Part shown: piece by piece, positions 12,417-52,255 of the stretch
Numbering within the stretch: position 1 is the first letter of the stretch
Layout: the number at the start of each line of letters is the position of its first letter
Assembly (NCBI RefSeq): GCF_000419525.1
Contig: NZ_ATTE01000001.1
Location: 3,755,501-3,819,500 of the forward strand
From: Leucothrix mucor DSM 2157
GTDB taxonomy: Bacteria; Pseudomonadota; Gammaproteobacteria; Thiotrichales; Thiotrichaceae
Length of the DNA stretch: 64,000 nt
Direction of reading: 5' to 3'
Made by a program: the position numbers and the translations under genes
Notes under the pieces: generated by a model
What the model was told of the DNA's origin: nothing
Seen by the model: the letters and a program-made list of their open reading frames with translations, nothing else
Databases searched by the model: none

Positions 12417-15400
12417 CTACTCATCAATAACGACCCGATAGCTGACCGAGCTTCCGGCGCCACCCAATACAGCACCAGTGAAATTCCACTGCAAACTGCC
12501 ATTCAAACCAACCGGACTCGTTGTACAACTCATTCCCGTCAGCACACCGCCACAATCTAAAGCACCATCGAGTTCGGTGTAAGCCGGAACCAAGTCATTC
12601 ACCACCAGATCAGTCAAAGGACCAGTACCCGTATTGCTGTAATAAATTCGGTACTCCAATATATCCCCAGGACTGGCGGTATTCACTGTATCGGTTTCCC
12701 CGCTATTAGTGCTTATATTACGCACAGTTTTTCGCAATTCCAAACGCGATGGCCCAACGGTAGGTGTTACCGGGGTAGCCGCCACCGGAGCCTGTGCAGG
12801 AACTTCCTCAGTTTCAGGAATATACGGCGTGGTTGGCGTTGCTTCCACCGGTGCTTGTACCGGAGTGACCGGTTCCGCGACCACTTCAGGCGTTGCAGGT
12901 AAAGCAGGTGCCACCACCTGCAATGCCGTCGTCACATCCCGGACTATCAGCGCTAAGGTGCCTGCAACCGTATTTTCAAAATCAAAGTCCGCCGTGATAT
13001 TTTGAACATACTGATCATTAGCCGCCACATTAGCTGGCGCATAGACTTTGTTAATCAAACAGATATTATCAGCCGCATCGACCGCCAACGAGCCAGTACC
13101 CAACGGCACAGCCCCATCACTTTGATTAAGCGTGCCATCACAGTTTGCATCGCGATAAATAATCGACGACCAACCACTGCTTTTATTCCCACTGGATACA
13201 CTGCTAAAACTCACGCTTCCCTTGGCTGGCGTTGTAAATTTATGCGCATAGAACAACACATTGCCCGGTAAAACCTGACCCGTATTATCCGGTTCAAAAA
13301 CTGGCAACTTAACATCACCAAAATCCTGCCCGGTAATATCACTGGTGGTAACGATAAATGCTTCACGCACATTATCCATAGTAGAGCGGTAACTACCTGG
13401 GTTTTTAGCAAATGCCGGACCACAGTTTCGAGGAACTGGCACACTTTCACGCGAAGCCTCATAGACCTGATAAGTTCCCGGAACTACATCTTCAAAAGCG
13501 TAAGCACCGCTGCCATCGGTTCGAGTACTCACACACACTTTATTGACCGTGTCATACAGCACAACTGGCAACTGGGTTACACCCACTTCACCGCTGTCAT
13601 TAGCTGCATTCACATTTGCATCATTAAATACACGTCCGCTTACCGTCACACCCACTGTCGTAATGGTGATGGGGTAATCCTCAACCTCACCATCCAGCTT
13701 AGGGCCATCCGGCTCACGATTATTCAGTGAATCCGTCGTCAGACGAACACGCAGGTACGTATCACCCGCTTTAATATCCAAGGGAATACTAGACCAGTTG
13801 AGCGTAATATCAGAACCACTCGCACCGGCCGAGACCGTACGAATCGCCGCTTCATCAGCATCGAAACGTCCGTTGCCATCAAAATCAATCCAGGCAATCA
13901 AGGTGGCGGTATTGCTGGTGCTATTATTCACTCTGGCAACAACGCTATAACTGCTGTCACTGATGGTGAGCGCGCCAAAGCTGGCAATCCCATCTTCATC
14001 AGCACCATCGCTATTAGCAGCGGTACTTGGCTGGCCATCGCTATCAACATCCGGCTTTACACTACCCAAATACACATTGTTAATCACATCATGTCGCGCG
14101 CCATCGGAGGCTAACGTCGTGTTGTAACGACTTGGCGCATCACCATAATCCTGACCGGCAATAATCGCCACGGCGGAGAACTCGGACGTTCCGGTTCCAG
14201 TAAGCGTTGCGGTAGCGGTCAGCTTATCGCCAACCTGCAAGCCTGCTGGCAATGCCATGCGCCATTGGAACGGACTCATACCGGTCGCATCATTGCCATC
14301 TGCATCGCTAAGGCCACTACAGTTCACTGCGGCTAAGGTACTATCTTCATCCACGCCTTCTTCAAAGCTGGTTATATAGACTTCACCTTCACCGTAATCC
14401 TGCGTTTTGCCAAAGCTATTATCACCAGCCGTCGCACCGCTGGACGAGGTAGAAGAAACATCCGCCTCAAACAGCTCAACCGTCGAGCCAGTTGGCGCAC
14501 AGCCCTGAATAATCAGATCAGAACCAGAATATACTACGCGGGTAAGCTGCGGGAAGTTAAGCCCGCCATTAGGCCCGGTATCCGCATCGTTGGCATCATT
14601 CAGCGTTACATCAGCAGCGGCACTTACCAGATCAATTCCCAACCCTCCATTGCTATACAGACTGTTGCGGCTAATCACCGCATCCGTCGCCCCATCGACA
14701 TACAAACCATCCGAACCATTATTGGCAATAATATTGCTGCCGGGTGCAGTACCATCTCCGATAGTAATATCAGCGCTGTTTAGTATGCGAATACCAAAGC
14801 TGTTATTACCGGCTGAATTACCAGCGGTATCTACACCAATACGGTTGTTGGTGATATTGATCATACGGCTATTGGCAATCCATACACCATTCTGAGTGTT
14901 ACCCGACAACGTATTATTAGTAATAGTGGCGTTGAAAGTACCCGTGCCACCACCGGAAATATGTAAACCATGCCCACCATTCGCCAGCGTTGTTGTGCCA
15001 TTAGCGGCCATACCCAACAGGTTGTTGGTAGTCGTTAATGTCAAATTTTCACTGTTAATCACGTACAGACCAGAAATAGTATTACCGGATGAGACGTTAT
15101 TTTGTACCGTTAACGTGGCACCGGCAGTAGAGATATTGGCCGCAAAGATACCGTGTTTCCCATTAGGTAGCGCGGTCTGACCATCAAGGGTGGTACCCAT
15201 GTGGTTTGTGTCTACTACAATACCCGCACCGGTTACGCCTATGAACAGGCCCTGTTCTGTATTGCCCGATAGCACGTTCATGCCGGCTGCACTACCATCA
15301 CCAATTTGCACATTGACTGAGGTAGAAACATTGATTCCGTTAACTGTATTCGGTGTTGCAGTTGTACCGGCAGCATCCAAACCCACATGGTTACAGACGA

Positions 15401-18400
15401 GCAACGCATCGTCACCCGAGAGGTTAATCCCGTGACGATCATAACCACCAATAGAGAAACCGCGCACGGTTGCGTTATTACCGGTGATAGTGAAGCCATC
15501 AATGCCAGAACCAGCAGCGGTACTACTACCATCTAGTACGACTTTTAACGTTCTTGGTGAACAGCTAGCACCGTTTTGGGTGCTGGCATCCAATGCCGTA
15601 AAGTGATCGGTGATCGCATCAAACCCTGTACCAGTGGCAATGGTTGCGAGACCTCCTGCAGTCAAATCCAGTGCGCCGTGGTTTGCTGTACCAGCATAGC
15701 CGGTACCATCCGGGATCATAAAGATGGAGGTTTCCTGTCCAGCATTAATGTTCTGATTCGGGATGTCAGTCAGCAAGTTACTGTTGAGAATAAACTGGCG
15801 CAGCGAGCCTTGGCCGGCATCGTTCGTATTGACGATGGTGTCGAAGTTAAAGCCAAAATCAATGCCTGTGATATCTGCGCCTACCAAGGTAACCGGAGTA
15901 ACCGATTGCGATTGACCACCATCCAAGGTGCCGCCGGTAAAGGCATAGCTTGTGGTATTCAGAACGGAAGGGCTGGCAATATCATATGCCGTGCCATCGC
16001 TAAGTGCTGGCTGTCGCCCACCAACTTCCGCAGTAACTGGTGTTGTGCCATCCGTACGGAAGGTTTGCACCGCAAGCTCACTGCCATCCGCACCGCTTCG
16101 GGTAGAGCTAATAGTGTCACTCACAACACGCACATGATAATCGCCATTAATCAAACCAGCGAACTCATACGCGCCGTCGTTAGTACCATCATTCGCAGTG
16201 GTTGTACTTGCGATAAATGCGCCGGTATTGTCGTAAAGCTCAACCGTTACGCCATTCACCCCAACGCCTGAAGCGCTCGCCTGATCACGTCCGGCACCAC
16301 CGCCGTAGTTGATATCTTCAAACACAATACCGTTCAACTTGCTGGCTTCAACAATGGGAATCGGGTAATCCTCGACCTCACCATCAATCGCCGCCAGTGT
16401 CGCACGCTCATCCACTCCCGTCGTTCCGGCCACATCAACCAGGGTATCGGACGTTAAACGGAAACGCGCATAGCTGGTACCAGCCGCCATAATATCGGTA
16501 AATGCCCAGTCTAAATCGGCCTGCACCACACCTGCAACCACCTCAGCCGTGGCTAATTCATCTGCCTGATATGCACCATCACCATCAAAATCGATCCACG
16601 CAGACAGCGTACCGTCTCCTGTGGCTACAATGTCAGTAGCTTTAATCTGGTAGCTAGTCATCGCTTCAGATAGCAGTGGAAAACTGGCAATCGCATCATC
16701 CGAAGCATCATCCGCCGCCAATACACTGGCCGTGTCTGCTGTCACACTTGCACCCAATTGAATGCCCGGTAATAACTGGTGCGTCGCGTCGCCATAAGCC
16801 GAAGCCGTCACCGTGCCATTTGGCGTATCTAAGCCATCGGCCAACCCATCGGAATAATCCGTTGGACAGGTGTAATTAAGCAGTGTAGGTCTGCCATAGG
16901 CCTGAGTCGGGTCAAACAAGACCGAGTAAACATACACCACGCCATCCGTAGGGTAAGTCACGGATATATCGAAGCTCTCACCAATACCGCCGCCACTGGC
17001 ATAGGTATACACAAAGTCTGCAGCGCTCAGTACATTGCCCGCCGCATCTTCAACCCAGTAAGCCGAGTACTCTGCTCCACCATTGGTATCGTAATTCACC
17101 GTTTCAGTGGCACCGGGAGTGCCTTCAAGACGGAATATGGTCGCATGATACTCAGAGCGATGACCGCTATCTGTACGTGCCGTAGTGATTAAATTATTAC
17201 CTGCACGCGTCGGAATGCTGCCCGTCAGCGTTTCCAGAAGATCAGGATCACCAAACGAGGTTACAATTTTGCCATTCGCCTGACGTCTTAACGCTAGGAA
17301 GGCATAAGGATCATTTTGCGCACTACCAGAGTTAAAGCGGATGTCGTTATCATGCAAGATTCCCGCCGCATCCGTTGCCCAACCACGTGACACAAAGCCA
17401 CCACACACGCCCGGTCTGGTCATTACATCCGGCGTATTATCCAGAATGGTCATGGCATAGTCTTCAACCTCACCATTTGCCGCAATTGAAGCGGGCGTGC
17501 TGGCGGTGATTGAGGCATCGGAGGTAAACCGGAAACGCGCAAATGTCGTGCTGGCACCGGCTAAACTAAAGTCAGGATTGCCACCGGCGCCGTCCATGGT
17601 CCAACTCAGCGTACCCGCTGTACCACTGGAAATCGCAGTGCTGCTGTGCTCATCGGCATCAAACGTACCGTTACCATCAAAGTCGATCCAAGCATGTAAT
17701 GTACCGCTACCAACTGCGGTAATATCTGCACTGACAATAGAATATTGCGTATCACCCGCCACCAAAGCCGGTAGCAAAATACCATCTTCATCATCCGCGC
17801 CATTAACATCATCACCATCGGCTAAGGCACTATCTTGATAGCTTGCGTCGATATCAGGATCACTGCTACCTAAGCTCATACCCGACACCACGGCATGTTG
17901 CGTGATGCCATAATTATTATTACCCGAACCACTTGGCGCAGTGCCTGACAATGGCGCATCACCATAATCAAAACTGGCCACCAAACCAATGGCCGAGAAT
18001 TCAGAAGTACCGGTACCAGCCAAAGTCGCAATCGCGGTCAACTTATCATCCAGTACGATACTCGCTCCGGCAGGCAAACTGCTCAAGGCAAAGGTCTGGC
18101 TAAAGGCCAACATACCCGTCGAGTCATTGCCATCCGCATCGGCAGGCAACGCACAGGCTGTGCCGCTAGCAGGCATAGTCCAAGCCGTCAGGAATACTTC
18201 ACCTTCACCATAATCCTGAGTCTTGCCAAACGCATTTGAACCTGCGCTGACACCGCTACCAGAAGTTGGTGAAACATCTGCTTCAAACAGCTCGACCGTC
18301 GCTCCCGCAGGTGCACAACCGGCTACCGTTAAATTGCCGCTAATCAGTGTGATTTGTGAGAACTGTGGGAAGTTAAGGCCGTCATTACCCGCTCCGGAAT

Positions 18401-21400
18401 CACTATCGCCAGCATCATTGAGCGTGACGTTATCCTGATCCAAATCGATACCTAAACCGGTATTGGCATACATCACGTTACGACTAACAGTATTGTTCTT
18501 AGCACCCGAACTTAAGACAGTAATTGCATCGCCCGTATTATAAGCAATGATATTGCTCTCATTAGCCGCACTGCCACCAACTGTCACGCCAGAAGTACTT
18601 TGAATCAGCACACCGCCGTTGGTATTACCCATGCCTGTCGTGCCATCCAGCGCGACACCGATTCGGTTATTAGTAATGACGTTATTCGTCGCATCACCAT
18701 TAATAATTCGGATACCGGTACTGCCATTGCCAGCAATGGTATTGCCGTTGACAGCCAAGTTCACCGCCGCAGTATCAACATCGATACCATAGCTGGTATT
18801 GCCGCGATCAGCCGTACCCGCTTCATTCAAACCAATCAGGTTATTGGTCACCGTGGTGTTCGGGCTATTCACCAAATGCACACCGCGTGAGCCATTGCCC
18901 GAGGCGACGTTGTCATGAATCACGACACCATTAGTTCCCGAGGTTTCAATACCCGCACCACCATTGGCTGCAATGGTATCGCCATCGGACAGCAAGCCGA
19001 CCACGTTATTTTCAACCCGTGTGTCAGACGTCGCACCGACCATATAGACGCCTATAACGCCATTACCAGAGACCACATTGCGATCATTCGCCGCACTGCC
19101 TCCGACTACAACGTCAGCCGAATTTTGGACATACACGCCGTGCAAACTATTCCCAATCGCACTCATGCCCGTGGCATCAACACCAATATAGTTACCTTTT
19201 ACCGTCGTGCCACCAGAAGCTGAAATACGCACACCGCTAATATCATTGCCAGCGATAACATTTCGACCCGCCACCGTGCCATCACCAATAATGGCATTGG
19301 CAGTATCTGCTAAGAAAATACCGTTATCCGTATTACCCAGCTCACTCGTGCCATTGATAGCAACACCAATATAGTTGCTGAGAATCGAGACCGTATCAGT
19401 ACCAAAGCGGGTGTTAATTCCATCTTCACCATTTCCGGAAATCACATTGCGGTCAGCGACTGAGCCACCCACGACAATATTTTTAGTATTGAAGCTGTAA
19501 ATACCGTGACCAGAGTTGGATAAAGCTGCCAAGCCATCGGCTCGCGTTCCGATCAGATTGCGCTTGATATCAATCGTGTTGGCCGCGTAGAGATAAATAC
19601 CATCAGTGGCATTGATCGGCGATGTACCGGAGATCTTGTCGTTACCTGAAATCAGGTTGTCTAAGATGCTGATATTGGTCGCACTAGCGATCGCCGCAAC
19701 ACCACCGTACTGAGCCCCTTCATTATTATTCGTCCGTGCGCTGTCACCACTCTCATCCGTACCGACATAGTTAAACTGTACCGTCGCGCCATTCACGCCA
19801 TCCAGATTTATCCCGTGGCGTGTGTTACCGGAGACAATATTTCGCTCAGTGTCGGTGCTACCACCAATGGTGATATTCGTGGCATCTTCAATCCAAATCC
19901 CGTGCAAACCGTTGGTGGCTAAGGTGCTGCCATCCGCGGCCAAACCGACATTATTACAAGCAACTACCAAGTTATCCGCATTGGCACTACCGTGAATACC
20001 CTGCTCGCTAAACTCACCAATGGCGAAGCCGCGAATAATCGCATCGCTAGCATCAATACTAATACCCTGCTCATTCACACCCGCATTGCTACCGTCTAAT
20101 TGCACTTGCAATGTACGCGCACCTGCCACACAACTTGCACCTTGCTGAGTTGTTGCATCCAGCGCGGTAAAGCTATCGGTTACTGCGGGTAAACCGGTAG
20201 TCGGCTCAATGACTTGTACGCCAGACCCCGGAATTTCAAAGATTGAGGTTTCAACACCGGCTGCTGGGTCAGTCGCGCCATCCGCAGCATTATCAACCTG
20301 ATCCAATCCCGTGTTATCCAGTAAATTACTGTTGAGAATAAATTGGCGTAAAGAGCCTTGGCCGGCATCATTTGTATTGACGATGGTGTCGAAGTTAAAG
20401 CCGAAATCAACCTCAGTCAGGTCAGCGCCTGCCATAGTGATTGGCTGCAATGATTGCGCCTCTCCACCATCCAAGGTACCGCCGGTAAACACAAACGTAC
20501 TGGTATTGAGTGTCGATGGGCTCGCGTCATCATAGGCAACATCATCTGCGATGGCCGGATTGCGACCACCCACTTCATTAGTAACCGCCGTCGTTCCATC
20601 TGTGCGGAAAGTTTGCACTGCAAGCTCGCTACCATTAGCACCACCACGAGTAGAGCCAACCGTATCATTCACAATACGAACGAAATAATCGCCATCCGTG
20701 ATGGTTTCAAATTTATACGTACCATCTGTACTGCCATCATTGACCGTCGTTGTGCTGCTGACATAAGCACCAGTATCATCATAAAGCTCAACCGTTACCC
20801 CATTTACGCCAACACCTGAAGCGCTTGCCTGATCGCGACCCGCGCCACCACCGTAATTAATGTCTTCAAAAACGACACCACTTAAATCAGAGGGACACGT
20901 GTAGTCTTCAACCGTCGTCTTACCGTAGTAAGAGGAAGGATCAAATAAGCTACCATAGAGATATACAACGCCATCTGCCGGATAAGTAAAGGTCAGTGGA
21001 AGCTCTTCGCCGTCGCCATCTTGAGGCTCAGGAGCAGCCGGAACTGAGTAAATAAACTCATTGGCATGTGTCAGTACATTACCTGCCGAGTCCTCAATCC
21101 AAGCGTAAATATTGTCCGCACCACCTACCGAGGTAAACTTCACGGTATCGGTCGTGCCGGGTTTACCATCTAAGCGGAATACGGTCAGGTGATATTCTGA
21201 TTTTTGACCAGGCTCCCCAACTGCAATCTCTGACAATTCAGTGCCCGCTTTACCGGGAATTGAACCACTCAACGTCTCATTCGGCAGACCAAACGACGTT
21301 ATGATGCGGCCGTCAGCATCTTTACCAAAGTTGGCATAGGCATAGGGATCACGCAGTTGGTCACCGCTTCCAAACAATATTTGCTTATTAATGTAGGGAC

Positions 21401-24002
21401 CAGCATTAGTCAGCCACCCAGCATGGTTATACACACCACAGCCCGTCGGCCTTGCAAGCACATCAGGAGCGCTAATAGCGAGCACATAGTCTTCTACCTC
21501 ACCATCGCTGGCTCCCGAGGCTGGCGTACTTGCCGTTACAGAGGTATCCGAAGTAAGACGGAAACGCGCAAAGGTACTATCACCAGCACTCAGTGTGAAA
21601 TTCGGATTGCCACCCACCCCATCCAAAGTCCAGATCAGGGAGCCGGCTGCAGAACCACCACTTACGCTAGTGCTGCTATGTTCATCGGCATCAAACGTGC
21701 CATTACCATCAAAGTCGATCCAAGCATGTAGTGTTCCGGTACCAGCAGCGGTAATGTCTGAACTTAAGATTGAATAAGAACTAACAAGGCCAGCGGTCAA
21801 TTTCGGTAAATCAATACCATCATCATCGCTGCCATCCCCATCCGCATTGGCACTTGCGATACTTGCTGTTTCGTCATCTACCGCCGAACCAAGATATAAA
21901 GCGCTGGTGGCATCTTCAATGTGTGAAGCTGTTCCATAGTTTGTTCCACTTGTTGGCGTATCCGAGCAGTCAACCCCAGGGAGATCATAAGCAAAGTGGA
22001 ATCCACCGATGTAACCCAGGTTGATAAATCTAATCAGCACTTCATCATTGGCAGCAACAGACACTTGTCCCGGATTTGTCTGGCTTATCCAACCATTAGG
22101 TCCTCCGCTAGGTGGGTGTGTCGCCCATTGACGCACACCATTAACGTACACCTCGACACCATCATCTACATAGCTGTCCGCGATGTCTGCGATTCGAATA
22201 ACACCGGCTAAATCAATCTTACGTCTGTAATCAATCTGGTAGTAGGCATTACTGTCTGACCAAGTTGAACCAACGTAGCTTGGATGCGGAAGGCTTGGCG
22301 AAGTTGGTGTTTCACCACCATTAGACCATGTTCCTATGGCGTTCCATGTTCCATTCGACGACGTTTGCACCGGATTCTCACCAGTACCCCAGAATGCTTC
22401 ACCACGGAACTCAGCTGCTCCGCTGCCACCTGATCCATTAGTAGGACCGTAGCTTGAGCTGGCAAAACCATTCTGCCCTTGATAATAACTGGCCGCCCAG
22501 TAGCCGCGAGGGAAACTGCGATCTTCAAGTCCATCTGGCGAGATTCCAGTAAAGTCTGAAGCCTGACAGGCCGCAAAAGGCACGTCGGGACTTGCAGGAG
22601 CCGAAGGCAAAAGCGTTATTTCATAATCCTCAACCTCACCATTAGTGGCTAAACCTGTACTAGCCACATTCAGATCACTTGACCAGCGAAAACGAGCATA
22701 GGTAGTTCCAACGGTGGAACTCAAAGCCGGGGTAATAGCAAAGCCAATCCTGCCCAGAGTTAAGTCCGTATCTCCAACACCATTATCCTGAACATTAGTG
22801 AGTAGCTGCTCGCCAAGGTCGGCAAAGTCACCGTCACCATTCCAGTCAATCCAAGCTTGTAACTTACCATTCGTTCCGGAAACGGTTGCACTGACTACCG
22901 TGGCCACTCCTAAAGTCAGCGGAGGTATAACCACGCCATCCTCATCATCAGTCCCATCTAAATCATCACCGGTGCCTTCAGCACCGCCATTGGCTAAATT
23001 CTGAGACTCCGCATCCTGATCAGGAGCTATCACTCCTAACTGCACACCAGCTTCAATGGAATGACTGGCATCGCCATAACTATCCGGAGCATCGCCATAA
23101 TCTGCTGGCTTTACACACACGATATCAGTGCTGTAACTCAGCGTATCCAAGCCATGAGGGTCACGTGCGCCGGCATCGATAGTGCCGCTTTCCACAATAT
23201 GTTTTATCGATACATTACTGACTGGCGAACTTGCGATAAAGCCAAGTGTGTTCTCAATATTTTGTCCTGCAGTAACTGTTCCACGCGTCGTGCCGTTGCC
23301 ATCCACTAAGGTTAGTGATCCCGTTAAGTCATCCCCAAGAAAGGGACCTTTTAAATAGGCTACCAGTTCACCGTCAGCATAGATCTCATAACGAAGTACA
23401 GGGCTGTTAAGGTTCAGTGTGTCAAAAATATCAATCAGATCAAAACTGAAAGCATTAACGGGTGTGGTAAAGTCTATTGATACGGTATAAGAGTCACCTG
23501 CAGTTCCACCCTGCTCCGGGAAGATATAAACTCCGTTACCAGTTTCGCCCGAAAAGAAATTAGCGGCTGTTGTCGTTCGAAATTGAGACAAATTGGTTGT
23601 GACATAGTCTGTACTGAAACGCATTGTTCCGTTATCAAAAGTACCCACACTATTAACCGCAGACCCAGAACCGGTATTACCTGTAAAACTATAATCACTA
23701 TTACCATTGAGTGTGGTTAGAGTGCCTCCCATTTGAGCAACCACATCCTGAAAGCCTGACTCCCTATAGCCCAGTGCATTGGTATTGTTACCAATAGTGT
23801 AGATACTGAGACCATCATCCAGCCAGCTAATAGCGTCACCTGCTGCGTTTATGGAGGCAGGAGGTAAACAATAGCTTTCGAAAGGTGTCGTTGCACCTAA
23901 GGCAGAAGCGCTAGCTAAGGCTAGGTTAACAGCCACTGCTGTTTTAAGAAAAACACGATTTAATCGCCCAAGGCGACTAGTAACTAAGCCACTCATTTTC
24001 AT
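12417..24002 (-). CDS. Giant secreted beta-helix/GEVED/SdrD protein (3861 aa)
   Basis: An 11.6-kb gene for an exported protein with an N-terminal signal peptide (hydrophobic core about residues 18-34, cleavage near ALG|ATT). In approximate order it has: a unique N-domain (40-300), GEVED unit 1 (305-465), a PA14/lectin-like SPDVPFAACQ...GVDCSDTP domain (471-680), GEVED unit 2 (to 835), an SdrD-like domain FEDINYGGGAGRDQ (1035-1200), and a first right-handed beta-helix of NosD-like NVISGN/IGG repeats (1300-1850). GEVED unit 3 follows (2011-2180), then GEVED 4, a second SdrD copy (2555) and a second beta-helix (2835-3135). It ends with GEVED 5 (3285-3440) and the shared C-terminal module (3452-3861). 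Many DxDGNGxxDxDE loops suggest Ca2+ binding. Probable surface adhesin or carbohydrate-binding fibre; no enzyme residues were identified. Confidence 0.82.
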   Translation of the reverse strand: MKMSGLVTSRLGRLNRVFLKTAVAVNLALASASALGATTPFESYCLPPASINAAGDAISWLDDGLSIYTIGNNTNALGYRESGFQDVVAQMGGTLTTLNGNSDYSFTGNTGSGSAVNSVGTFDNGTMRFSTDYVTTNLSQFRTTTAANFFSGETGNGVYIFPEQGGTAGDSYTVSIDFTTPVNAFSFDLIDIFDTLNLNSPVLRYEIYADGELVAYLKGPFLGDDLTGSLTLVDGNGTTRGTVTAGQNIENTLGFIASSPVSNVSIKHIVESGTIDAGARDPHGLDTLSYSTDIVCVKPADYGDAPDSYGDASHSIEAGVQLGVIAPDQDAESQNLANGGAEGTGDDLDGTDDEDGVVIPPLTLGVATVVSATVSGTNGKLQAWIDWNGDGDFADLGEQLLTNVQDNGVGDTDLTLGRIGFAITPALSSTVGTTYARFRWSSDLNVASTGLATNGEVEDYEITLLPSAPASPDVPFAACQASDFTGISPDGLEDRSFPRGYWAASYYQGQNGFASSSYGPTNGSGGSGAAEFRGEAFWGTGENPVQTSSNGTWNAIGTWSNGGETPTSPSLPHPSYVGSTWSDSNAYYQIDYRRKIDLAGVIRIADIADSYVDDGVEVYVNGVRQWATHPPSGGPNGWISQTNPGQVSVAANDEVLIRFINLGYIGGFHFAYDLPGVDCSDTPTSGTNYGTASHIEDATSALYLGSAVDDETASIASANADGDGSDDDGIDLPKLTAGLVSSYSILSSDITAAGTGTLHAWIDFDGNGTFDADEHSSTSVSGGSAAGSLIWTLDGVGGNPNFTLSAGDSTFARFRLTSDTSVTASTPASGASDGEVEDYVLAISAPDVLARPTGCGVYNHAGWLTNAGPYINKQILFGSGDQLRDPYAYANFGKDADGRIITSFGLPNETLSGSIPGKAGTELSEIAVGEPGQKSEYHLTVFRLDGKPGTTDTVKFTSVGGADNIYAWIEDSAGNVLTHANEFIYSVPAAPEPQDGDGEELPLTFTYPADGVVYLYGSLFDPSSYYGKTTVEDYTCPSDLSGVVFEDINYGGGAGRDQASASGVGVNGVTVELYDDTGAYVSSTTTVNDGSTDGTYKFETITDGDYFVRIVNDTVGSTRGGANGSELAVQTFRTDGTTAVTNEVGGRNPAIADDVAYDDASPSTLNTSTFVFTGGTLDGGEAQSLQPITMAGADLTEVDFGFNFDTIVNTNDAGQGSLRQFILNSNLLDNTGLDQVDNAADGATDPAAGVETSIFEIPGSGVQVIEPTTGLPAVTDSFTALDATTQQGASCVAGARTLQVQLDGSNAGVNEQGISIDASDAIIRGFAIGEFSEQGIHGSANADNLVVACNNVGLAADGSTLATNGLHGIWIEDATNITIGGSTDTERNIVSGNTRHGINLDGVNGATVQFNYVGTDESGDSARTNNNEGAQYGGVAAIASATNISILDNLISGNDKISGTSPINATDGIYLYAANTIDIKRNLIGTRADGLAALSNSGHGIYSFNTKNIVVGGSVADRNVISGNGEDGINTRFGTDTVSILSNYIGVAINGTSELGNTDNGIFLADTANAIIGDGTVAGRNVIAGNDISGVRISASGGTTVKGNYIGVDATGMSAIGNSLHGVYVQNSADVVVGGSAANDRNVVSGNGVIGVYMVGATSDTRVENNVVGLLSDGDTIAANGGAGIETSGTNGVVIHDNVASGNGSRGVHLVNSPNTTVTNNLIGLNEAGTADRGNTSYGIDVDTAAVNLAVNGNTIAGNGSTGIRIINGDATNNVITNNRIGVALDGTTGMGNTNGGVLIQSTSGVTVGGSAANESNIIAYNTGDAITVLSSGAKNNTVSRNVMYANTGLGIDLDQDNVTLNDAGDSDSGAGNDGLNFPQFSQITLISGNLTVAGCAPAGATVELFEADVSPTSGSGVSAGSNAFGKTQDYGEGEVFLTAWTMPASGTACALPADADGNDSTGMLAFSQTFALSSLPAGASIVLDDKLTAIATLAGTGTSEFSAIGLVASFDYGDAPLSGTAPSGSGNNNYGITQHAVVSGMSLGSSDPDIDASYQDSALADGDDVNGADDEDGILLPALVAGDTQYSIVSADITAVGSGTLHAWIDFDGNGTFDADEHSSTAISSGTAGTLSWTMDGAGGNPDFSLAGASTTFARFRFTSDASITASTPASIAANGEVEDYAMTILDNTPDVMTRPGVCGGFVSRGWATDAAGILHDNDIRFNSGSAQNDPYAFLALRRQANGKIVTSFGDPDLLETLTGSIPTRAGNNLITTARTDSGHRSEYHATIFRLEGTPGATETVNYDTNGGAEYSAYWVEDAAGNVLSAADFVYTYASGGGIGESFDISVTYPTDGVVYVYSVLFDPTQAYGRPTLLNYTCPTDYSDGLADGLDTPNGTVTASAYGDATHQLLPGIQLGASVTADTASVLAADDASDDAIASFPLLSEAMTSYQIKATDIVATGDGTLSAWIDFDGDGAYQADELATAEVVAGVVQADLDWAFTDIMAAGTSYARFRLTSDTLVDVAGTTGVDERATLAAIDGEVEDYPIPIVEASKLNGIVFEDINYGGGAGRDQASASGVGVNGVTVELYDNTGAFIASTTTANDGTNDGAYEFAGLINGDYHVRVVSDTISSTRSGADGSELAVQTFRTDGTTPVTAEVGGRQPALSDGTAYDIASPSVLNTTSYAFTGGTLDGGQSQSVTPVTLVGADITGIDFGFNFDTIVNTNDAGQGSLRQFILNSNLLTDIPNQNINAGQETSIFMIPDGTGYAGTANHGALDLTAGGLATIATGTGFDAITDHFTALDASTQNGASCSPRTLKVVLDGSSTAAGSGIDGFTITGNNATVRGFSIGGYDRHGINLSGDDALLVCNHVGLDAAGTTATPNTVNGINVSTSVNVQIGDGSAAGMNVLSGNTEQGLFIGVTGAGIVVDTNHMGTTLDGQTALPNGKHGIFAANISTAGATLTVQNNVSSGNTISGLYVINSENLTLTTTNNLLGMAANGTTTLANGGHGLHISGGGTGTFNATITNNTLSGNTQNGVWIANSRMINITNNRIGVDTAGNSAGNNSFGIRILNSADITIGDGTAPGSNIIANNGSDGLYVDGATDAVISRNSLYSNGGLGIDLVSAAADVTLNDANDADTGPNGGLNFPQLTRVVYSGSDLIIQGCAPTGSTVELFEADVSSTSSSGATAGDNSFGKTQDYGEGEVYITSFEEGVDEDSTLAAVNCSGLSDADGNDATGMSPFQWRMALPAGLQVGDKLTATATLTGTGTSEFSAVAIIAGQDYGDAPSRYNTTLASDGARHDVINNVYLGSVKPDVDSDGQPSTAANSDGADEDGIASFGALTISDSSYSVVARVNNSTSNTATLIAWIDFDGNGRFDADEAAIRTVSAGASGSDITLNWSSIPLDIKAGDTYLRVRLTTDSLNNREPDGPKLDGEVEDYPITITTVGVTVSGRVFNDANVNAANDSGEVGVTQLPVVLYDTVNKVCVSTRTDGSGAYAFEDVVPGTYQVYEASRESVPVPRNCGPAFAKNPGSYRSTMDNVREAFIVTTSDITGQDFGDVKLPVFEPDNTGQVLPGNVLFYAHKFTTPAKGSVSFSSVSSGNKSSGWSSIIYRDANCDGTLNQSDGAVPLGTGSLAVDAADNICLINKVYAPANVAANDQYVQNITADFDFENTVAGTLALIVRDVTTALQVVAPALPATPEVVAEPVTPVQAPVEATPTTPYIPETEEVPAQAPVAATPVTPTVGPSRLELRKTVRNISTNSGETDTVNTASPGDILEYRIYYSNTGTGPLTDLVVNDLVPAYTELDGALDCGGVLTGMSCTTSPVGLNGSLQWNFTGAVLGGAGSSVSYRVVIDE
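15500..20900 (-). repeat. Long internal duplication inside the 3861-aa gene (SdrD domain + linker + beta-helix)
   Basis: Two copies of the same domain series lie about 4.5 kb apart. Each begins with FEDINYGGGAGRDQASASG, continues through SELAVQTFRTDGTT and the 20-residue stretch ending in NTNDAGQGSLRQFILNSNLL, and leads into a parallel beta-helix. Copies start near 20890 and 16330. At the protein level the first about 190 residues of each copy are nearly the same, while the beta-helix parts have diverged in length. Confidence 0.75.
21952..22492. repeat. Near-identical 541-bp segment shared by two giant genes, copy A
   Basis: This coding segment (PA14/lectin-like domain, minus strand) matches 28330-28870 at a constant offset of 6378 bp. 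Reading both copies side by side I count only about four substitutions, while the flanking sequence is clearly diverged. This points to recent gene conversion or duplication of one domain. Confidence 0.9.
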
Positions 24003-24004
24003 TC

Positions 24005-24030
24005 TTATTCTTATTCTTATTCTCTTATTC
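24005..24030 (-). repeat. Hexanucleotide microsatellite abutting the start codon of the 3861-aa gene
   Basis: On the plus strand three perfect TTATTC units (24005-24022) are followed by TC and a fourth unit (24025-24030). On the coding strand this is a GAATAA/AAGAATAA purine-rich array ending directly at the ATG (24000-24002). It takes the place where the ribosome-binding site should be; AAGA/AGAG parts of the repeat may serve as a weak one. Confidence 0.85.
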
Positions 24031-24037
24031 TCATGGC

Positions 24038-24059
24038 TCTGGAATTTATACTTTCCAGA
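24038..24059. promoter_or_regulatory. Inverted repeat upstream of the 3861-aa gene (possible operator)
   Basis: TCTGGAA (24038-24044) and TTCCAGA (24053-24059) form 7-bp arms around an 8-bp centre that includes a TATAAA-like -10 element on the minus strand. It lies 36-57 bp upstream of the start codon, so a bound regulator would occlude transcription initiation. No regulator can be named. Confidence 0.4.
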
Positions 24060-24151
24060 TCAAATCTAATGCCAAGATGAGTTTTGCGGAACTACTTCAT
24101 GGCAACTTTCAGTCAACACCAGATAACTCTGTGACACTGTAGGTATTACTT

Positions 24152-24259
24152 CAAAACTAACACCTCCTTCCACAACCAAAGCTGAATAAACACCTCCAAA
24201 TAAGCTTTCCCACACAATATCCACAGGCACAAAAAAGGGGCTGAATAAATTCAGCCCCT
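24152..24259. repeat. Non-coding repeat with terminator, copy A
   Basis: About 108 bp of non-coding DNA that resembles 32666-32774. Shared blocks are CAAAACTAACA, ACCAAAGCTGAA, TATCCACAGGCACAAAAAA and the terminator hairpin, in the same order and at similar spacing, with diverged sequence between them. Confidence 0.6.
24231..24258 (-). terminator. Rho-independent terminator after the 2749-aa gene
   Basis: A hairpin with 9-bp arms (GGGGCTGAA at 24237-24245 and TTCAGCCCC at 24250-24258) and a 4-base loop is followed on the minus strand by six T residues (A-run 24231-24236 on the plus strand). It lies 45 bp after the stop codon. A second copy of this terminator follows isocitrate lyase. Confidence 0.92.
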
Positions 24260-24302
24260 ATTCACACAAACCATCATCCAAAACGGTCAGTGTCCGAACC
24301 GC

Positions 24303-27300
24303 TCAATCATCAACCTTTACCTGATAACTTACCCAAGCACCCGAGCCACCTCTTAACTCCCCGTCAAAAGTCCACTTAAGGCTATCATCCAGCCCCAAAG
24401 GGCTGGCAATACAACTCATCCCACTCGGCGCACTGCCACAATCAGGCGAGCCAGACAGCGACGTATAAGCTGGAACAGTGTCATTGATTACAAGTTCATC
24501 CAACGGCCCGGTTCCGGTATTGCGGTAATAAATCCGGTACTCTAGGATATCACCGGGCGCAGCCGAATTAACGCTCTCAGTCTCGGGACTCCCAACCACG
24601 GAAACGTTCCGCACAGACTTGCGCAACTCTAGGCGGGATGGACCAACGGTAGGCGTTACCGGTGTTGGATCAACCTGTGCCTGAACGGGTGCTTCCGGAA
24701 TCTCAGGAATATACGGCGTAGTTGGTGTTGCAGGAACGGGGTCTTGCTCTGGCGTAACATCTGGCACAGCCACTACCTCAGGAGTGGCGGGTAATGCAGG
24801 CGCTTGTACCTGTTGCGCCGTCGTGACATCCCGGACTATCAGCGCCAAGGTGCCTGCAAACGTATTTTCAAAATCAAAGTCCGCCATGATATTTTGAACA
24901 TACTGATCATTAGCCGCCACATTAGCTGGCGCATAGACTTTGTTAATCAAACAGATATTGTCAGCCGCATCCACCGCCAACGAACCAGTACCCAACGGCA
25001 CGGCTCCATCAGTTTGATTAAGCTTGCCATCACAGTTTGCATCGCGATAAATAATCGACGACCAACCACTGCTGCGATGACCACTGGATAAGCTGCTAAA
25101 GCTCACACTACCGGCGGCTGGCGTGGTGAATTTATGCGCATAGAACAGCACATTACCCGGTAAAATCTGACCCGTATTATCCGGCTCAAAGACGGGTAAC
25201 TTCACATTTCCAAAGTCCTGCTTTGTTATGTCACTGGTGGTGACGGTAAATGCTTCACGTACTTTTTTAGTAGTAGAGCGATAACCACTGGGATCTTTGG
25301 CAAATGCCGGATCACAATTCCTGGGAACCTGCACACTTTCACGCGAAGCCTCATAGACCTGATAAGTCCCGGGCACCACATCTTCAAAGACGTAAGCACC
25401 ACTGCCATCGGTTCGAGTACTCACGCATACTTGATTGACCCTGTCATACAGCACAACTGGCAACTGGGTTACACCCACTTCGCCACTGTCATTAACTGCA
25501 TTCACATTTGCATCATTGAACACACGTCCGCTCACCGTTACGCCAGCGGTGGTAATAGTGATTGGGTAGTCCTCAACCTCACCATCCAGCTTAGCCCCGC
25601 CTGGCTCCCGGTTGCTTAAAGCATCCGTGGTTAACCGTAAGCGCAGATAGCTGTTACCTGCTTTAATATCGAGCGGAATATTTGACCAGTTCAGCTTAAC
25701 ACTGACATTACTGCTACCAGCAGCTATAGCTCTGATCGCCGCCTCATCAGCGTCAAAGCGCCCGTTCCCATCAAAATCAATCCATGCAATCAATGTGGCC
25801 GAGCTCAAAGTGTCATTGCTGGCAGTAACTGAAACGCTGTAAGTACGATCAGAGGTTGTCAGTATCGGTAAAGCACTAACCCCATTTTCATCCGCGTCTT
25901 CATCCGCGTCATCATTCGCTGCCGTTGCAGAAGGCTGTCCATCATCTTCAGTATCCGGGGCATTGGAGCCAAGATATACGCCATTTATCACGCTATGTTG
26001 CGGGCCTGAGCTAGTCTTGTAGGTCGCATAAGTGTCGGGAGCATCGCCGTGGTCCTGAGGGATGCAGCTGACAAATCCGATATTGGCTGAGCCCGCATAG
26101 GTCTGGTACGCCACACGTAGATTGGTTAAACCACTGACCGGCCAGACATAAGCTTCCTGATCATTATTTGGCCCGTCTGAAAGCGTAACAATCTGCTGCA
26201 ACACGTTATTCCATGAAGCAAACAAACTCGGACTATTCGCAGTAGTGGTTAAAGGGCTCTGCGTTTCCCAAAGACTTGGCGCAGGCAACAATCCCAAATT
26301 ATTATTTGAAAAGGTTACTGACTCGTTGGTGGCATCAACATCTCTGACCACCATATAAGTATTCGCCGGTAGGGCTTCACTAAACACAATATCGGCCGTT
26401 GTTGTACCGGTGCCGCTAAGGTCATCAGGATAGTTCAGATTAATACCATATCCCGGAGACCCAAACCGGTCAGAGAAGGTGCTTTGAGTAAAGGCTTTTG
26501 CAGCCGCCGCTGTCCACTTAGCGTTGCTACCCGTCATCGTCGAATTAAACATTACATTCGCGCTAAGCCCTCTCTCAGCCCAGTCAATCGCCCAAGTTGA
26601 ATTTGGATCTGCCGACTGACCGGAGGTATTCATCCAGCTGGTTATACCGTTACATACCGGAGGGGGCGTTCCCGGATTTTGGAGAATGACAGGGTAATCT
26701 TCCACCTCACCATCGGAAGCCTCACCAATTGCTGTCGATACCTCTGTCTGATCTGAAGCAATGCGTAAGCGCGCATAGGTCGTGCCCGTACTTAAGCCCG
26801 ACAATCCGATCCAGTTCAGCGTTGCAGTACCATTAACATTGCAGCGCTCCGGGTAATCCGTATTTCGTTCACCAGCATCGAACTCACCATTTTGATTGAA
26901 ATCAATCCAGCCCGAAACATAAGCCCCCTGATCACTGCAATCCACCTTCAAACGATACTGTGATTGCGTCGTCCAGATTGCCGGAAGCGTGTCATAAGCA
27001 TCTTCATCGTCAGTGCCATTAAGGTCGTCGCCCTTACCATCACTACCGCCATTCGCAGTGTGCTGAGTTTGAGATTCGTTATCCGGTGCAACGCTACCTA
27101 AATAAACGGTCGGTGTTTCCGGAATCTTATGTGCCGCCTCCTGATAGGAGGCCGGAGCATCACCATAATCATAAGGCTCGGCGCACACGACAAACTCAAT
27201 GCCATCACCACCTGCCCCCTCAACACCGACGCCGCTAAAGTCCAGACTCAAACTGTTATAAGTACCATTCACCTGCACCGAACCCATCGCGGTGTAAATA

Positions 27301-40646: not shown

Positions 40647-40829
40647 GTGCCTGCCTATATCCCGAGATTAAAAAAATGAGTCAACAACCGTTAAGCTTTG
40701 GTCGAGCTTCGGACTGTTAGCTTGAAAAGACAATTTTTCCGTGGCGATAGTTTTAGAGCAGACGCTGGGGCTTCGTATTTCCTGCTAAATACAAAAAACC
40801 ACCAGAAGAGTCTAGCGCGGAACTTAACA

Positions 40830-43800
40830 GTGAAAAATAAAAATACCTGTCGCCTTCATTATTTTATGGGGTACTTAAGTACCTTATTTGTAAGCCTTTT
40901 ATTAGCCAACGGGCAAGCTCAGGCAGCAAGCTTCACCTTAGGAGGCCCAACCAGCCCAGCCATCATTAGCGGTAGTGAGTGTGAACCGGTCTTATACCGG
41001 GTACCCATTGACCAGACCTATGAAGGCAAGTTACTGGATATGTTGGTCGATATCACAGAGGAAGATAATCAATGGAATTTGACCCGCGCCTCACATGGAT
41101 ACTCAATCCCCTGTACCCGGGTTGTTGATGGCACTTTGAGCTTTGTCCTCGACTCTGTTAGATATTCTAATACCATCAATAGCTGGACGTTAGATGAAAG
41201 CGATGATATCGGCGCCGACGGAATTTCCGGAACGGCTGACGATGGTGATGATTCCGCCCACATGAATATGACTTTAACTGTTGTGGAGCGCAATACGACA
41301 ACCCCGGTTACAGTCGACCGCCTTATCATTACCGGTTTTGATCTTGATCAGGGGTCAGGCACCGATGATATCTATTATATATCCGCTAGCAATACCCAAC
41401 CAATTCTCGCTAGTGACAGCGAGGTTGACCTATCGGAAAATACCTCCTACAACACTTACAACCTGAAAAACAAAGGCAGATTAGAGTCCTGCAACGATAC
41501 TGCAACCGCGCCAGACTCAACCTGTCGGGCGAGTAGTATCTTTCTGGATACATCGTCAGTAACACTTCGCATACAAAATGATCTTGCCTACGTGCGTCTA
41601 TTCAATTTTTCTTTTCGGGTTCAGGATCTGGAAGCGATTATAGGTACATCCAGCGATTACGGCGACACTCCTAACACCTACCCTGTCGGCGCCCAAACTA
41701 TAGGCACTGCCTTGGCTGCTCTTGGTACCGGCTTCGTGCCTGATGGTGAGACTGCACAGCAATTTACAAATAATGCTGATGGAGATGACACTGACGGAGC
41801 TGGAGGCGCACTCACGGCGCTTGATGATGAAGACGGTGTTTTCCTGTCGGATGGTACAACCAAACTGGATGGCGCCGATTTAACCACAGGTGAAACAACT
41901 ACGTTAAGCATCAAGACGTTTGGCTCAGGTTACTTAAATGTCTGGATCGACTGGAACCAGAATAACAGCTTCGCAGATAGTGGTGAGAAAATCATCATCG
42001 ACCAGAATATTGTAAATACCGGTGAGACAGCAATCGATGGCACAGCAACTACTAACGCCACTGATGCGCGTAGCACTACCAATATTTCAGTTCCGGTTCC
42101 TGCTGGTGCTGTCGTCGGCCAAACCTATGCGCGCTTCAAGTTCACCTCAGAGGCTGCACCTGGTGTTGGTGTCACCGCCAGTAAAGGCGAAGTTGAAGAC
42201 TACTCCCTAATACTGTCTGCACCACCTTCATTCGGGACTGGAATGACCTACTGTGAATCAACCGGAAACTTATTGCTTGGTCCCAATCTAATCTCCGGGG
42301 GCTCTTTTTCAAAACAAGGGAGCTTATCTACAAATATTCCAGGAGCGACAACGGGTTATGAGTATTACACGGGAGTAGGCTTCTCCGACGGCTGGCCAAA
42401 TGATAAGCAGTATGAGCCTGAAAATGGTAAGTACCTAATCACATCGCGAACAGGACCTAACCTCTATGGTGCGGCTTTAAGTTCAGCAAGAGAATCAGGC
42501 CTCTGGCACGACCTGAGAGGAGTTCAGGCAGCAACTAATTCAACTGACAAGTTTATGGTGATTAATGGTGATGAGACCCCAGGTGGCGTTTTTGTCCTGC
42601 CCATTTCAGTTGAAGTCGGTGACAACTATGAGTTTTCTGCCTATTTTTCGAATCTGATCTCACGGCCCGACCTTAAGACCTATATCGAACCGAATATTGC
42701 TTTTGAATACTCCATAGACGATGGTGATACTTGGATTGAGATTGATACAACAGGCAATGTAGAGGCCTCTCAATATCCGGACCCCGCGGGATGGCAACAA
42801 AGCGCAGGGTTCATCACTTCGAGTATTACAGGAACGATGTTAGTTCGCCTTAATTCAATTGCCCCCGGAGGCAGTGGTAATGACTTTGCGGTGGATGAAC
42901 TGGTTTTTCAAAAATGTTCGGCAATACCAGTTGGCGAAGCCTCATCAATCGATTACTCAGATGCACCCGCCGATAACTCCACAGCGCCAAATGGTATAAC
43001 AAAATCCACCGCTTACGGTACAGCCACTCATGTGGTGACTTCCGGTATTCAATTGGGCGCTTCCATCACCGGTGAAACCAGTGCCGTTGAAGATGCCGAT
43101 AATGATTCAGATGATGGCGTATTTACCGATGCGGCATTGACGGCAGGCCTACAGGGTGGAAATTTTAAACCTGAAGACAGCTCTACCTTATACATCCCCG
43201 TTTCAGGCAGCGGTAAGCTTTACGCGTGGATCGATTGGGATGGCAATGGCGTATTTGGTAACAACAGCAATGAGCTGATTGCCAATGGTATTGCCGGCGC
43301 CAATGAAACGCTGATAGTAAATGCCAGCGTGCCGATAGCCGCCAATCTTGGCACCACTTATGCCCGCTTCCGTTTCAGTAGCGATGCGGCATTAACGGAA
43401 CCAACGGGGGCAGCGAGTGATGGTGAAGTCGAAGACTACCAAGTCACTATTGCCAATACCGCAACGGCTCCTACTGCACCAGCAATTGCTTATTGTAGTA
43501 ACACCTGGACCTTAGACGGCGGCGTTTATAAAGCCACAACCAGTCAAGGCGTTGCAATCTCTGCAAGCACTACCGCAGAGCCAGGAACTTCCTGGTCATT
43601 TGCGCCCAACGATGCACTCAATACCTCCGGAAATTTTAGCTTTGCAGCACTCAATGGCTCCCCCTCTTTAAGCACCGTCTTTACTTGGGACACCTCTCCG
43701 GAAGATGGACGTTTAGCCAATGCAGCCAATGATGCTGCAAGCGGCACGCTAACATTTAGCTTTGGGGTACCTGTTAAAAATCCGGTTCTACATATCGATC

Positions 43801-46800
43801 GTCAAGGTGGTTATGGCTCCAGTGCGGCTGCCACCCCTCAAGGGCTTAGTAATTCCTCAATTATTACGCCAAATACAGCGAACGCCAGCGCCAGTTTTAC
43901 CCGTCTTGCAGGCACTACACACTTTTTAGTGACCAGTAATAGCATCCAACGCACGCCCAACGAAACCATGCAAGATACGGGTGTGACCGGTGCCTCAGGG
44001 GCTGATAGCACCATCTATACCGCCATGGGGTCAGTACAAGTTAACGGCACCTTTAATAGCCTAAGCCTTGACCTAAGCGGCGTCGGCGTTGAGGGAGCAG
44101 GTGCCGATGGCATTGAATTTGTCATCTGTGCCGAGCCTTATGACTACGGCGATGCACCTGCCAGCTATGGTGAAGCCGCTCATAAAATTCCTGATACTCC
44201 CGTTGTCTACTTAGGCGATGTGGCACCCGATCACGAACCACAAATCCTGAATACTGCTAATGGTGGTTCAGATGGTACCGGGGATGACCTGAATGGCAGC
44301 AATGACGAAGATGCTTATGTAAAACTACCCGCAGTGTGGACCAGCCAGTCTCACTATCGCCTAAAGTTAACCTGTAACGATACCGGTGCTTTCGTCTCCG
44401 GCTGGGTTGATTTCAATCAAAATAATCAGTTTGATGTGGGCGAGCGCAATACCGACTACCCAAGCAAATGCAGCAGCACCGGCAGCGTGACGCTTAACTG
44501 GACAGGACTCTCCGGCTTAACCGCTGGCAACACCTATGCCCGCTTACGGATTGGTTCGGATACCGATGAGATTTCCACCGCAACCGGTACCGCCAGTGAT
44601 GGTGAAGTAGAAGATTACCCAATCGTACTGCAAGCGACGGGTACACCACCGGGCGCTTGTAATGGAGAATTAAGCTGGCTAAATCTGGCCGGCCAACCGG
44701 CTTATCCAACAGCGAGCTGGAATGTCAATTGGGCCGAGCGCGGCCTCAATGCCACCCTAGGCTTTAGCACTACGATGACCGGCAGCAACGCCAAATGGAC
44801 CTCCGCTGCACCCAGAGTATTTACCGAAAGCAACTTTATTAATCGCTTCAGCTCTCCGGGCTATGCGTTGGGCTTAAACCATCCAGCAGACCTAAGCGGT
44901 ACAGGCTCAACCATCGCCAATATTGGATTTGATACCCCATTACCAGCTAACACCTACATGGTGGTACGGGATGTTGATGCGACCAATGAATCTATTAGCT
45001 TCTCCAATAACAGCTTGGGGTCTTTGCCAGCCCCCAGTCTCTGGGAAACTCAGAGCACTACCGAGCTTAATGCGAACGCTATCGAGACCCCCTCATGGAA
45101 CAACCCAAGCCTGTTCGCCGCCTGGGACGCCGCCAACCAGAAACTAGTCACACTGTCGGATGGCCCGAATAATGATCAGGAAGCTTATGTCTGGCCTGTC
45201 GCCGGATTAACGGATATTCGTGTCACCTACCAAACCTATGCAGGCTCGGCGAATATCGGCTTTGTCAGCTGTATTCCACAAGACTACGGAGATGCACCGA
45301 ATACTTATTTGACCACGAAGTCCGCAGCAGGCCCGCAACACGGCATTATTAATGACGTCCGCCTTGGCGCGAACACTCCGGACACTGATAGCGACGGCCA
45401 ACCTTCAACCGATGGCAATGGTGATGGTGCCGATGAAGACGGCATTAGTAGCCTACCCACCCTCACCAGCTCCGACCGCAGCTTTAGCGCGACCGTGAGT
45501 GCCAGAAATGACACCGCTAACCCCGCGACCTTAGTCGGTTGGATTGATTTTGATAATAACGGCACGTTGGATGCTGATGAAGCGGCCATCCGAACCATTG
45601 CTGCTGGCAGTAGTAACGCCAGCTACACTCTCAACTGGTCTAATATTCCGGTCGATATTCAAACTGGTGATAGTTATTTACGCTTGCGTTTAACCACCGA
45701 CTCCTTAAGCAACCGGGAACCAGGTGGTGCCAAACGCGATGGTGAGGTTGAGGATTACCTTATCACTATTAAGGCGGCTGGGGTTATGGTCAGTGGCCGG
45801 GTGTTTAACGATTCGAATGTCGATGCAGCCAATGACAGCACTGAAATCGGCGTGACTAATTTACCAGTCGTACTCTATGAAACGATTAGTAAAACCTGCA
45901 TCAGCACACGAACTAACGGCTCAGGAAATTACGTGTTTAAGGATGTAACTCCCGGTACCTATCAAGTGTATGAAGCCTCTCGGGAAAGTGTGCCAACTCC
46001 TGGGCAATGTGGCCCTGTCAATGCTAAAGACCCAAGCGGCTACCGCTCAACGACCAGCAAAGTACGTGAAGCATTTACCGTGACGACCAATGACATTACC
46101 GGACAAGACTTCGGAAATGTGAAATTACCCGTCTTCGAGCCAGATAACACGGGTCAGATTTTACCGGGCAATGTGTTGTTCTATGCGCATAAATTCACCA
46201 CGCCAACTGCCGGCAGCGTCCGCTTTAGCAGCTTATCCAGTACGCATCGCAGTAGTGGTTGGTCTTCGATTATTTATCGGGATGAAAACTGCGATGGCAA
46301 GCTAAACCAAAGTGATGGAGCCTCGCCTTTACAGACCAGCTCAATGGAAGTCAATGCGAATGATAAAGTTTGCCTGATCAATAAAGTCTATGCGCCATCT
46401 AATGTGGCCGCCAATGAGCAGTATGCTCAAAACATCACGGCTGACTTTGACTTTAAAAATATCGTTGCGGGTACATTAGCGCTGACAGTACGAGATGTCA
46501 CGACGGCAAAACAGGTTCAGGCACCCGCTTTACCCGCAACACCAGAGGTAGTCGCTGAGCCAATCACACCCGCTCAGGAGCCGGTCGATGCAACACCAAC
46601 CACACCCTACATTCCTGAGGTTCCGGAAGCTCCTGCACAAGCGCAGGTCGACCCAACACCAGTGACTCCGGCCGTCGGCCCATCTCGCTTGGAGCTGCGC
46701 AAAACAGTTAAAAACATTAGCCAAGGAACCGCTGAAACCAGCACGGTAAACTCAGCAGATCCCGGCAATATACTGGAATACCGCATTTACTACAGCAATA

Positions 46801-47015: not shown

Positions 47016-47132
47016 GTTGCTCATGACAAATTTTAGAGAAAACAACCGCTTGGTCTGCAAAGTGTTGTGCTTATCGGGTTTCAGAGCTAGCATCGAGATA
47101 GCCATAATAATCAATATAATAGGTTTACCCAG

Positions 47133-47849: not shown

Positions 47850-47862
47850 AAGCAGTAATCAA

Positions 47863-47891
47863 TTCAGGGCCGTTTGAATAGCGGCCCTGAA
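47863..47891 (+). promoter_or_regulatory. Intercistronic hairpin between chaperone and usher genes
   Basis: Perfect 10-bp arms TTCAGGGCCG (47863-47872) and CGGCCCTGAA (47882-47891) around a 9-base loop. There is no T-run, so it is unlikely to be a full terminator. The usher ribosome-binding site (TAAGG, 47892-47896) starts right at the base of the stem, so folding should limit usher translation or protect the upstream chaperone mRNA. Confidence 0.65.
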
Positions 47892-47901
47892 TAAGGTGTT
47901 T

Positions 47902-51583: not shown

Positions 51584-51681
51584 GACTCCACCCCACTTTA
51601 AAGCAAGTAATAGATGATAGATTTGAAACGCTCCCCCCAGCGTGCAAACCTTCTAAATATAAAAATAAATAGGTACACAAA

Positions 51682-52167: not shown

Positions 52168-52200
52168 GAAAGAGATACCTTTTTGTAAAAAAAGCTAGTA

Positions 52201-52239: not shown

Positions 52240-52255
52240 ATAAGAAGGAACATAA

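Follow-up and report, generated by a model that had tools for sequence, protein, structure and literature searches.

A hexanucleotide array at the start codon of a giant surface-type gene of Leucothrix mucor, read as a candidate Hfq-occupiable translation-initiation region

In this study, we examined a tandem repeat at the start codon of a giant gene in Leucothrix mucor DSM 2157, within a stretch of 64,000 nucleotides (nt) of contig NZ_ATTE01000001.1 (positions 3,755,501 to 3,819,500), hereafter the window. The gene is an open reading frame (ORF) of 3861 amino acids (aa) on the minus strand, and its GEVED, SdrD_B and right-handed beta-helix domains identify the predicted product as a surface-type protein; the N-terminus, judged by eye, is signal-peptide-like and of the secreted type. 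The original prediction had described three to four TTATTC units at the start codon, and that is what the locus holds, namely three contiguous units on the plus strand (24005-24010, 24011-24016 and 24017-24022), flanked by part units on either side, and one further unit offset by two extra bases (24023-24024). The leader, in coding-strand orientation, has the sequence ...GCCATGAGAATAAGAGAATAAGAATAAGAATAAGAATGAAAATG...; its final part unit enters the ATG, the first two bases of which fall within the array. TRF gives a second row for the same tract, at 24015-24032 with period 8.

12417-24002, minus strand: ORF of 3861 aa with GEVED, SdrD_B and right-handed beta-helix domains; ATG at 24002-24000, second in-frame ATG at 23996-23994
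24001-24023, minus strand: perfect period-6 array of 3.8 copies that overlaps the start codon, (AATAAG)n when read on the coding strand (TRF and sequence)
24025-24030, minus strand: fourth TTATTC unit, 2 nt out of step with the perfect array

The array is not explained by chance. A first-order Markov simulation of 20 Mb, matched to the dinucleotides of the sampled genome, produced 247 period-6 arrays of at least 14 bp, one of at least 18 bp and none of 19 bp or more. Genome-wide, the 13-mer of two adjacent units was confined to the focal array (two overlapping matches in 5.19 Mb on two contigs). A 23-bp match to the same hexamer in a relative (G034) was set aside as unrelated, being placed at a contig end, immediately 3' of a 363-aa ORF and not at a start. 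The claim that a slippage-type array precedes the ATG of a surface-type giant gene is borne out, and the genome is rich in perfect microsatellites. Perfect arrays (at least 20 bp and at least three copies; two T9 runs and two N runs excluded) numbered 15 in 839,500 sampled bases, with periods of 3, 6, 7, 8 and 9 and lengths of 23-126 bp, the focal array being the shortest and the other 14 spanning 31-126 bp. Six are located within called ORFs, all with a period that keeps the frame (6 or 9), and nine between called ORFs, among them every one of the seven with period 7 or 8; four of the 15 form one 200-bp cluster (L055). Measured to ORFs of at least 150 aa only, the focal array is the sole one at a called-ORF start, and just one of the rest comes within 150 nt of such a start (137 nt). 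Because only the focal array sits at a start and the arrays are otherwise elsewhere, the growth of repeats is a widespread tendency in this genome rather than a switching signature at start codons. Such richness is not family-wide, since the relative G003 is similarly rich (4 arrays in 135,652 bases) but G006 (1 in 328,000) and G030 (0 in 200,000) are poor; G002 had 0 in 10,534. Loss of mismatch repair was rejected as the source of the many arrays, MutS being present (one MutS_V match). The long perfect microsatellites (periods 6-9, maximum 126 bp) include those at L040 5289-5409, L083 5341-5454, L080 13018-13143 and L051 5213-5283.

The leader around the array comprises the following features.

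24236-24259, minus strand: intrinsic terminator of the upstream 2749-aa gene, separating it from the focal gene
24045-24075, minus strand: promoter-like TTGGCA-N19-TATAAA, inferred by manual reading
23960-24045, minus strand: predicted leader fold, with the array and ATG in a 40-nt unpaired loop, a 7-bp closing stem (GAGCCAU/GUGGCUU) and a second hairpin downstream
24017-24034, minus strand: five-codon upstream frame ATG AGA ATA AGA GAA TAA, read from the sequence, its stop inside the array; translation putative

The focal gene is probably transcribed from a promoter of its own, because the terminator of the 2749-aa gene lies upstream of it. The inferred TATAAA sits between the inverted-repeat arms TCTGGAA/TTCCAGA (24059-24053 and 24044-24038); a Sigma-70 scan of 23800-24400 returned 0 promoters with spacers limited to 16-18 nt, so that an N19 element falls outside it. 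It had been suggested that the repeat fills the space of the ribosome-binding site. The array does abut the ATG, but the region is not empty and only weak in Shine-Dalgarno (SD) character, with exact anti-SD matches of up to 4 nt; in 415 of 573 sampled leaders, for which the choice of start is biased towards SD, the best match is likewise at most 4 nt. The 40 nt preceding the focal ATG have an A content of 0.55, which 8 of the 573 leaders reach. The predicted fold has a free energy of -16.9 kcal/mol and a z of -2.28 that covers both hairpins jointly, with 1 of 200 shuffles as good, and a longer version of 171 nt gives a z of -1.47.

The original prediction further proposed that changes in unit number tune expression without a frameshift, through the spacing of the SD or of the -10 and -35 elements. 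Unit changes indeed cannot shift the frame, because the array lies in front of the ATG, while neither form of spacing control agrees with the layout of the leader. Since the array abuts the ATG, the final 18 nt before it are identical at any copy number from three units up, and, by prediction, a fraction of 0.96-0.98 around the start is unpaired whether there are 3, 4, 5, 6, 8 or 9 units (0.94-0.95 with one or two, 0.78-0.81 with none). The -35/-10 spacing would also be unaffected by unit number, because the only promoter-like elements seen, by manual reading, lie upstream of the array. The gain or loss of a unit would thus affect nothing but the lengths of the leader and its A-rich tract.

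Read on the mRNA, the array resolves into a run of A-R-N triplets.

24001-24021, minus strand: seven consecutive A-R-N triplets, AAU AAG AAU AAG AAU AAG AAU

The distal face of Hfq has six pockets and binds 18 nt of A-R-N. The first six focal triplets (24021-24004) cover positions -19 to -2 relative to the ATG, 18 nt in all and in length one such footprint, and the tract is single-stranded by fold prediction. An hfq gene is present in the genome (E 7.7e-29), and in a printed alignment the distal-face stretch YLVNGIKLQG of its product is identical to that of Pseudomonas aeruginosa. The focal leader has the longest run of A-R-N and of A-A-N triplets (seven) among the 573 sampled leaders, the next best being five. 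With expectations taken from 200 dinucleotide shuffles of these leaders and the focal one included in the counts, A-A-N runs of at least four were observed 11 times against 4.58 expected (1 of 200 shuffles as high), and runs of at least five in 4 of 573 leaders against 0.82 (0 of 200 shuffles reach 4); for runs of at least six, 0.14 are expected. In the window, (AAN)5AA occurs in the array only (two overlapping matches, 0.01 expected). Genome-wide there are 24 matches at 16 distinct sites, 4 of which, the focal site among them, end at most 16 nt upstream of an ORF start, and 6 of which belong to one intergenic family of CrcZ-like elements. A shared Hfq-regulon identity was considered and rejected, the other ORFs behind (AAN)5 leaders looking by eye like envelope or pilus-type proteins and not like catabolic enzymes.

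Seven copies of the CrcZ-like element were located on contig C1 of this genome.

2188619-2188713 (L156): CrcZ-like element
2189640-2189733 (L172): CrcZ-like element
2461977-2462067 (L185): CrcZ-like element
4691874-4691966 (L181): CrcZ-like element
5035870-5035963 (L165): CrcZ-like element
5044476-5044562 (L183): CrcZ-like element
5044917-5045011 (L177): CrcZ-like element

The element promoter consists of direct repeats of the GTTAAT/GTTCAT type about 11 nt apart, then a -10-like TAGAAT/CATAAT, after which follow a block CAGCTTCNAGGGGCTA able to form a hairpin with a GGGG loop and an A-rich tract; several copies also carry a terminator-like inverted repeat. A model of promoter, block and tract, built from the seven own copies, which match by construction, found 22 matches in all six other genomes of the genus (2-7 each); of 56 other family genomes, two gave a single weak match apiece. 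Within 100 nt after the -10 region, AANAANAA occurs 3-8 times in all 28 genus copies examined, an enrichment that is partly built in, as the model contains part of the A-rich tract. Folded singly, most copies place the A-rich tract in a stem-closed loop. When stem arms were swapped between 27 distinct copies, own arms scored a mean of 17.5 versus 15.2 for swapped arms, with 0 of 2000 permutations as high, a result that kinship between copies can inflate. RNAalifold on a MAFFT alignment of 26 copies did not recover this closing stem and gave 4 pairs of the first hairpin only, with weak covariation. The Rfam CrcZ model scores 16.9-23 bits, against a gathering score of 95, and at Rfam gathering scores ten element loci yielded tRNAs only. 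These features suggest that the elements are putative Hfq-decoy-like small RNAs, apparently a new, multi-copy, genus-wide family of the CrcZ type. The sole Rfam CrcZ match in the genome, at L155 (C1 3160197-3160245; 23 bits, under the gathering score), lies outside the matches of our element model and shows by eye GTTCATC, TATAATG and an A-rich tract. In the window, 50992-51087 is a weak match to the element model (E 5.1e-4), in which a GTTCATAATCCGTTCAT direct repeat precedes a TATAAT-like element; it lies just before the first of three ORFs similar in size, of 161, 161 and 159 aa, which have no Pfam match, and is perhaps under the same regulator as the small-RNA family.

On these grounds we tentatively favour the reading that a short microsatellite grown by slippage in the 5' leader of the giant surface-type gene now forms its translation-initiation region, poor in SD, rich in A and open to occupation by Hfq, with decoy RNAs as the probable means of release. 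From the position of the array, its predicted openness, its SD poverty and its A-R-N phase we infer that Hfq would bind the triplets and compete with the 30S subunit, and that the protein would be made once Hfq is titrated away, for example by the A-R-N-rich small RNAs described above. Should the repeat expand or contract, the Hfq site would become longer or shorter by two triplets per unit, with no change of spacing. A stronger version, which we regard as unlikely, is a slippage-tunable operator in which, at two triplets per unit, a step would occur near three units, where the six distal-face pockets are filled, and which would be wired to the genus-specific decoy RNAs. If this were true, a repeat array would set how tightly an RNA chaperone binds, rather than any spacing or frame, and a leader microsatellite would count Hfq binding triplets, allowing heritable tuning of expression that leaves both untouched; no description of such triplet counting by a leader microsatellite was found in the literature searched.

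Known Hfq operators offer partial parallels. The amiE6ARN sequence of P. aeruginosa, 18 nt of six A-R-N triplets that comprise the ribosome-binding site, is an operator for Hfq and Crc (PMC6422490, PMC8266614), and Crc strengthens the action of Hfq (PMC8266614). It resembles the focal leader in having 18 nt of six such triplets in the ribosome-binding site of one gene, whereas the focal triplets derive from a tandem hexamer abutting the ATG, Crc is unconfirmed and binding of Hfq is putative; moreover, the amiE6ARN target is a catabolic enzyme and the focal target a giant surface-type protein. In Escherichia coli, Hfq represses its own translation chiefly via the distal face, with (ARN)3 in the 5' untranslated region (5'-UTR) and no need of Crc, and small RNAs with A-R-N repeats lift this autorepression (PMC6348989); Hfq crosslinking in this species also recovers A-R-N repeats (PMC4104026). 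The E. coli hfq leader thus shares with the focal one an A-R-N repeat in the 5'-UTR, but its site is (ARN)3, in contrast to seven triplets from a perfect tandem repeat.

Several observations weigh against a role for Hfq at this start codon. A-R-N runs, as distinct from A-A-N runs, are not clearly enriched in the sampled leaders, either at five or more (4 of 573 versus 3.31 expected) or at six or more (1 versus 0.62). The A-R-N phase of the array may be coincidental, since any tandem A-rich hexamer of suitable phase yields a perfect A-R-N run. A true Crc was not found, one of seven PF03372 matches having been compared with solved structures; that protein scored 347.8 bits as an exodeoxyribonuclease versus 264.1 bits as Crc, and retains exonuclease residues absent from Crc. 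The array is also absent both from the homologous leader of the neighbouring 2749-aa gene and from that of a 291-aa paralogue, the frame that is the closest in-genome relative of the N-terminal domain (52% identity), and no conservation of the array in an orthologue was seen among the family genomes.

The main rival, which we hold to be possible though rather doubtful, is that the leader is a plain A-rich, unstructured, non-SD landing site for the 30S subunit (S1-type), with no role for Hfq and a minor one for copy number. It is in line with the A-richness of the leader (0.55 in 40 nt, reached by 8 of 573) and with a predicted accessibility of 0.94-0.98 from one unit up, but leaves the exact A-R-N phase and the A-R-N-rich small-RNA family unexplained, though neither must be linked to the gene.

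In line with the original prediction, it has also been considered that the array is a contingency locus, at which slippage would alter unit number and expression of the surface protein by whatever molecular step. Slippage-type array, surface-type gene and the 15 perfect microsatellites in 839,500 bases would suit this idea, and precedents exist. The 5'-UTR of Moraxella catarrhalis uspA2 has an AGAT repeat of 6-23 copies that varies between strains and affects expression (cited in PMC4679880), and the NadA repeat is a further precedent (PMC2791445). Like the focal array, the uspA2 repeat stands in the leader of a surface-protein gene, but its copies are many and vary between strains, whereas the focal array has 3.8 units, read in one genome, and is the shortest of the sample. 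Furthermore, array length leaves SD spacing and predicted accessibility unchanged, and the other 14 arrays are not clustered at starts (one within 150 nt, at 137 nt). In Haemophilus influenzae, strains differ by one unit in a hexanucleotide repeat located 19 bp from a start codon, yet there was no evidence that hexanucleotide repeats mediate phase variation (PMC2651432). We therefore consider a contingency locus quite improbable. Even if the favoured Hfq reading is wrong, the case still argues for reading a start-codon repeat first as in-register RNA and only then turning to phase variation.

Next to this in rank, and quite improbable too, comes a neutral microsatellite that reached the start codon by accident: arrays are common in this genome, most at sites without an evident role, and the 2749-aa neighbour and the 291-aa paralogue do without one, but full neutrality is unlikely because the array occupies sequence that must contact the ribosome. 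Least probable by far is reinitiation from the five-codon upstream frame (24034-24017), with unit number setting the distance from stop to start, for although the frame exists and its stop lies inside the array, its ATG has a 3-nt anti-SD match only, a transcript from the inferred promoter would place it very near the 5' end, and chance readily produces short frames.

A further relative of the focal array is the TAACTGA heptamer repeat found upstream of start codons in marine Beggiatoaceae, with 169 sets in one genome (PMC4679880). Both are tandem repeats that reach the start codon and overlap the expected ribosome-binding site with little SD character, but TAACTGA is dispersed over many starts, whereas two adjacent units of the focal hexamer occur at a single genome site. 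The focal array stands between known leader repeats (TAACTGA, uspA2) and known Hfq operators, and the combination would be new.

The 3861-aa ORF is flanked by same-strand giant ORFs of 2749 and 1788 aa with GEVED, SdrD_B and DUF11 domains. The intergenic stretches before the 3861-aa and 2749-aa genes share homology in their first part, with 91% identity in a 56-bp piece and a mean column identity of 77% over the whole alignment. The N-terminal 300 aa of the focal ORF had no match in 62 other family genomes, its own genome being the sole carrier among 63, and a wider contig scan gave 30 relatives, of which those covering the N-terminal domain are flavobacterial proteins, 47-53% identical. Upstream of the giant ORFs lies a gene that we take, from its sequence, to resemble isocitrate lyase, and homologues of it were found in three genomes of the genus (G002, G003 and G006). 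The giant-ORF cluster (window 12417-32823) was probably inserted in this species, because no ORF above 1,250 aa was present in the stretches fetched around the isocitrate-lyase-like homologues of these three genomes. Near the giants, window 40698-52735 encodes a 2105-aa GEVED/SdrD_B protein, a 238-aa ORF, an outer-membrane usher (PF00577) and, in series, three ORFs of 159-161 aa, a set that possibly represents a chaperone-usher surface cluster.

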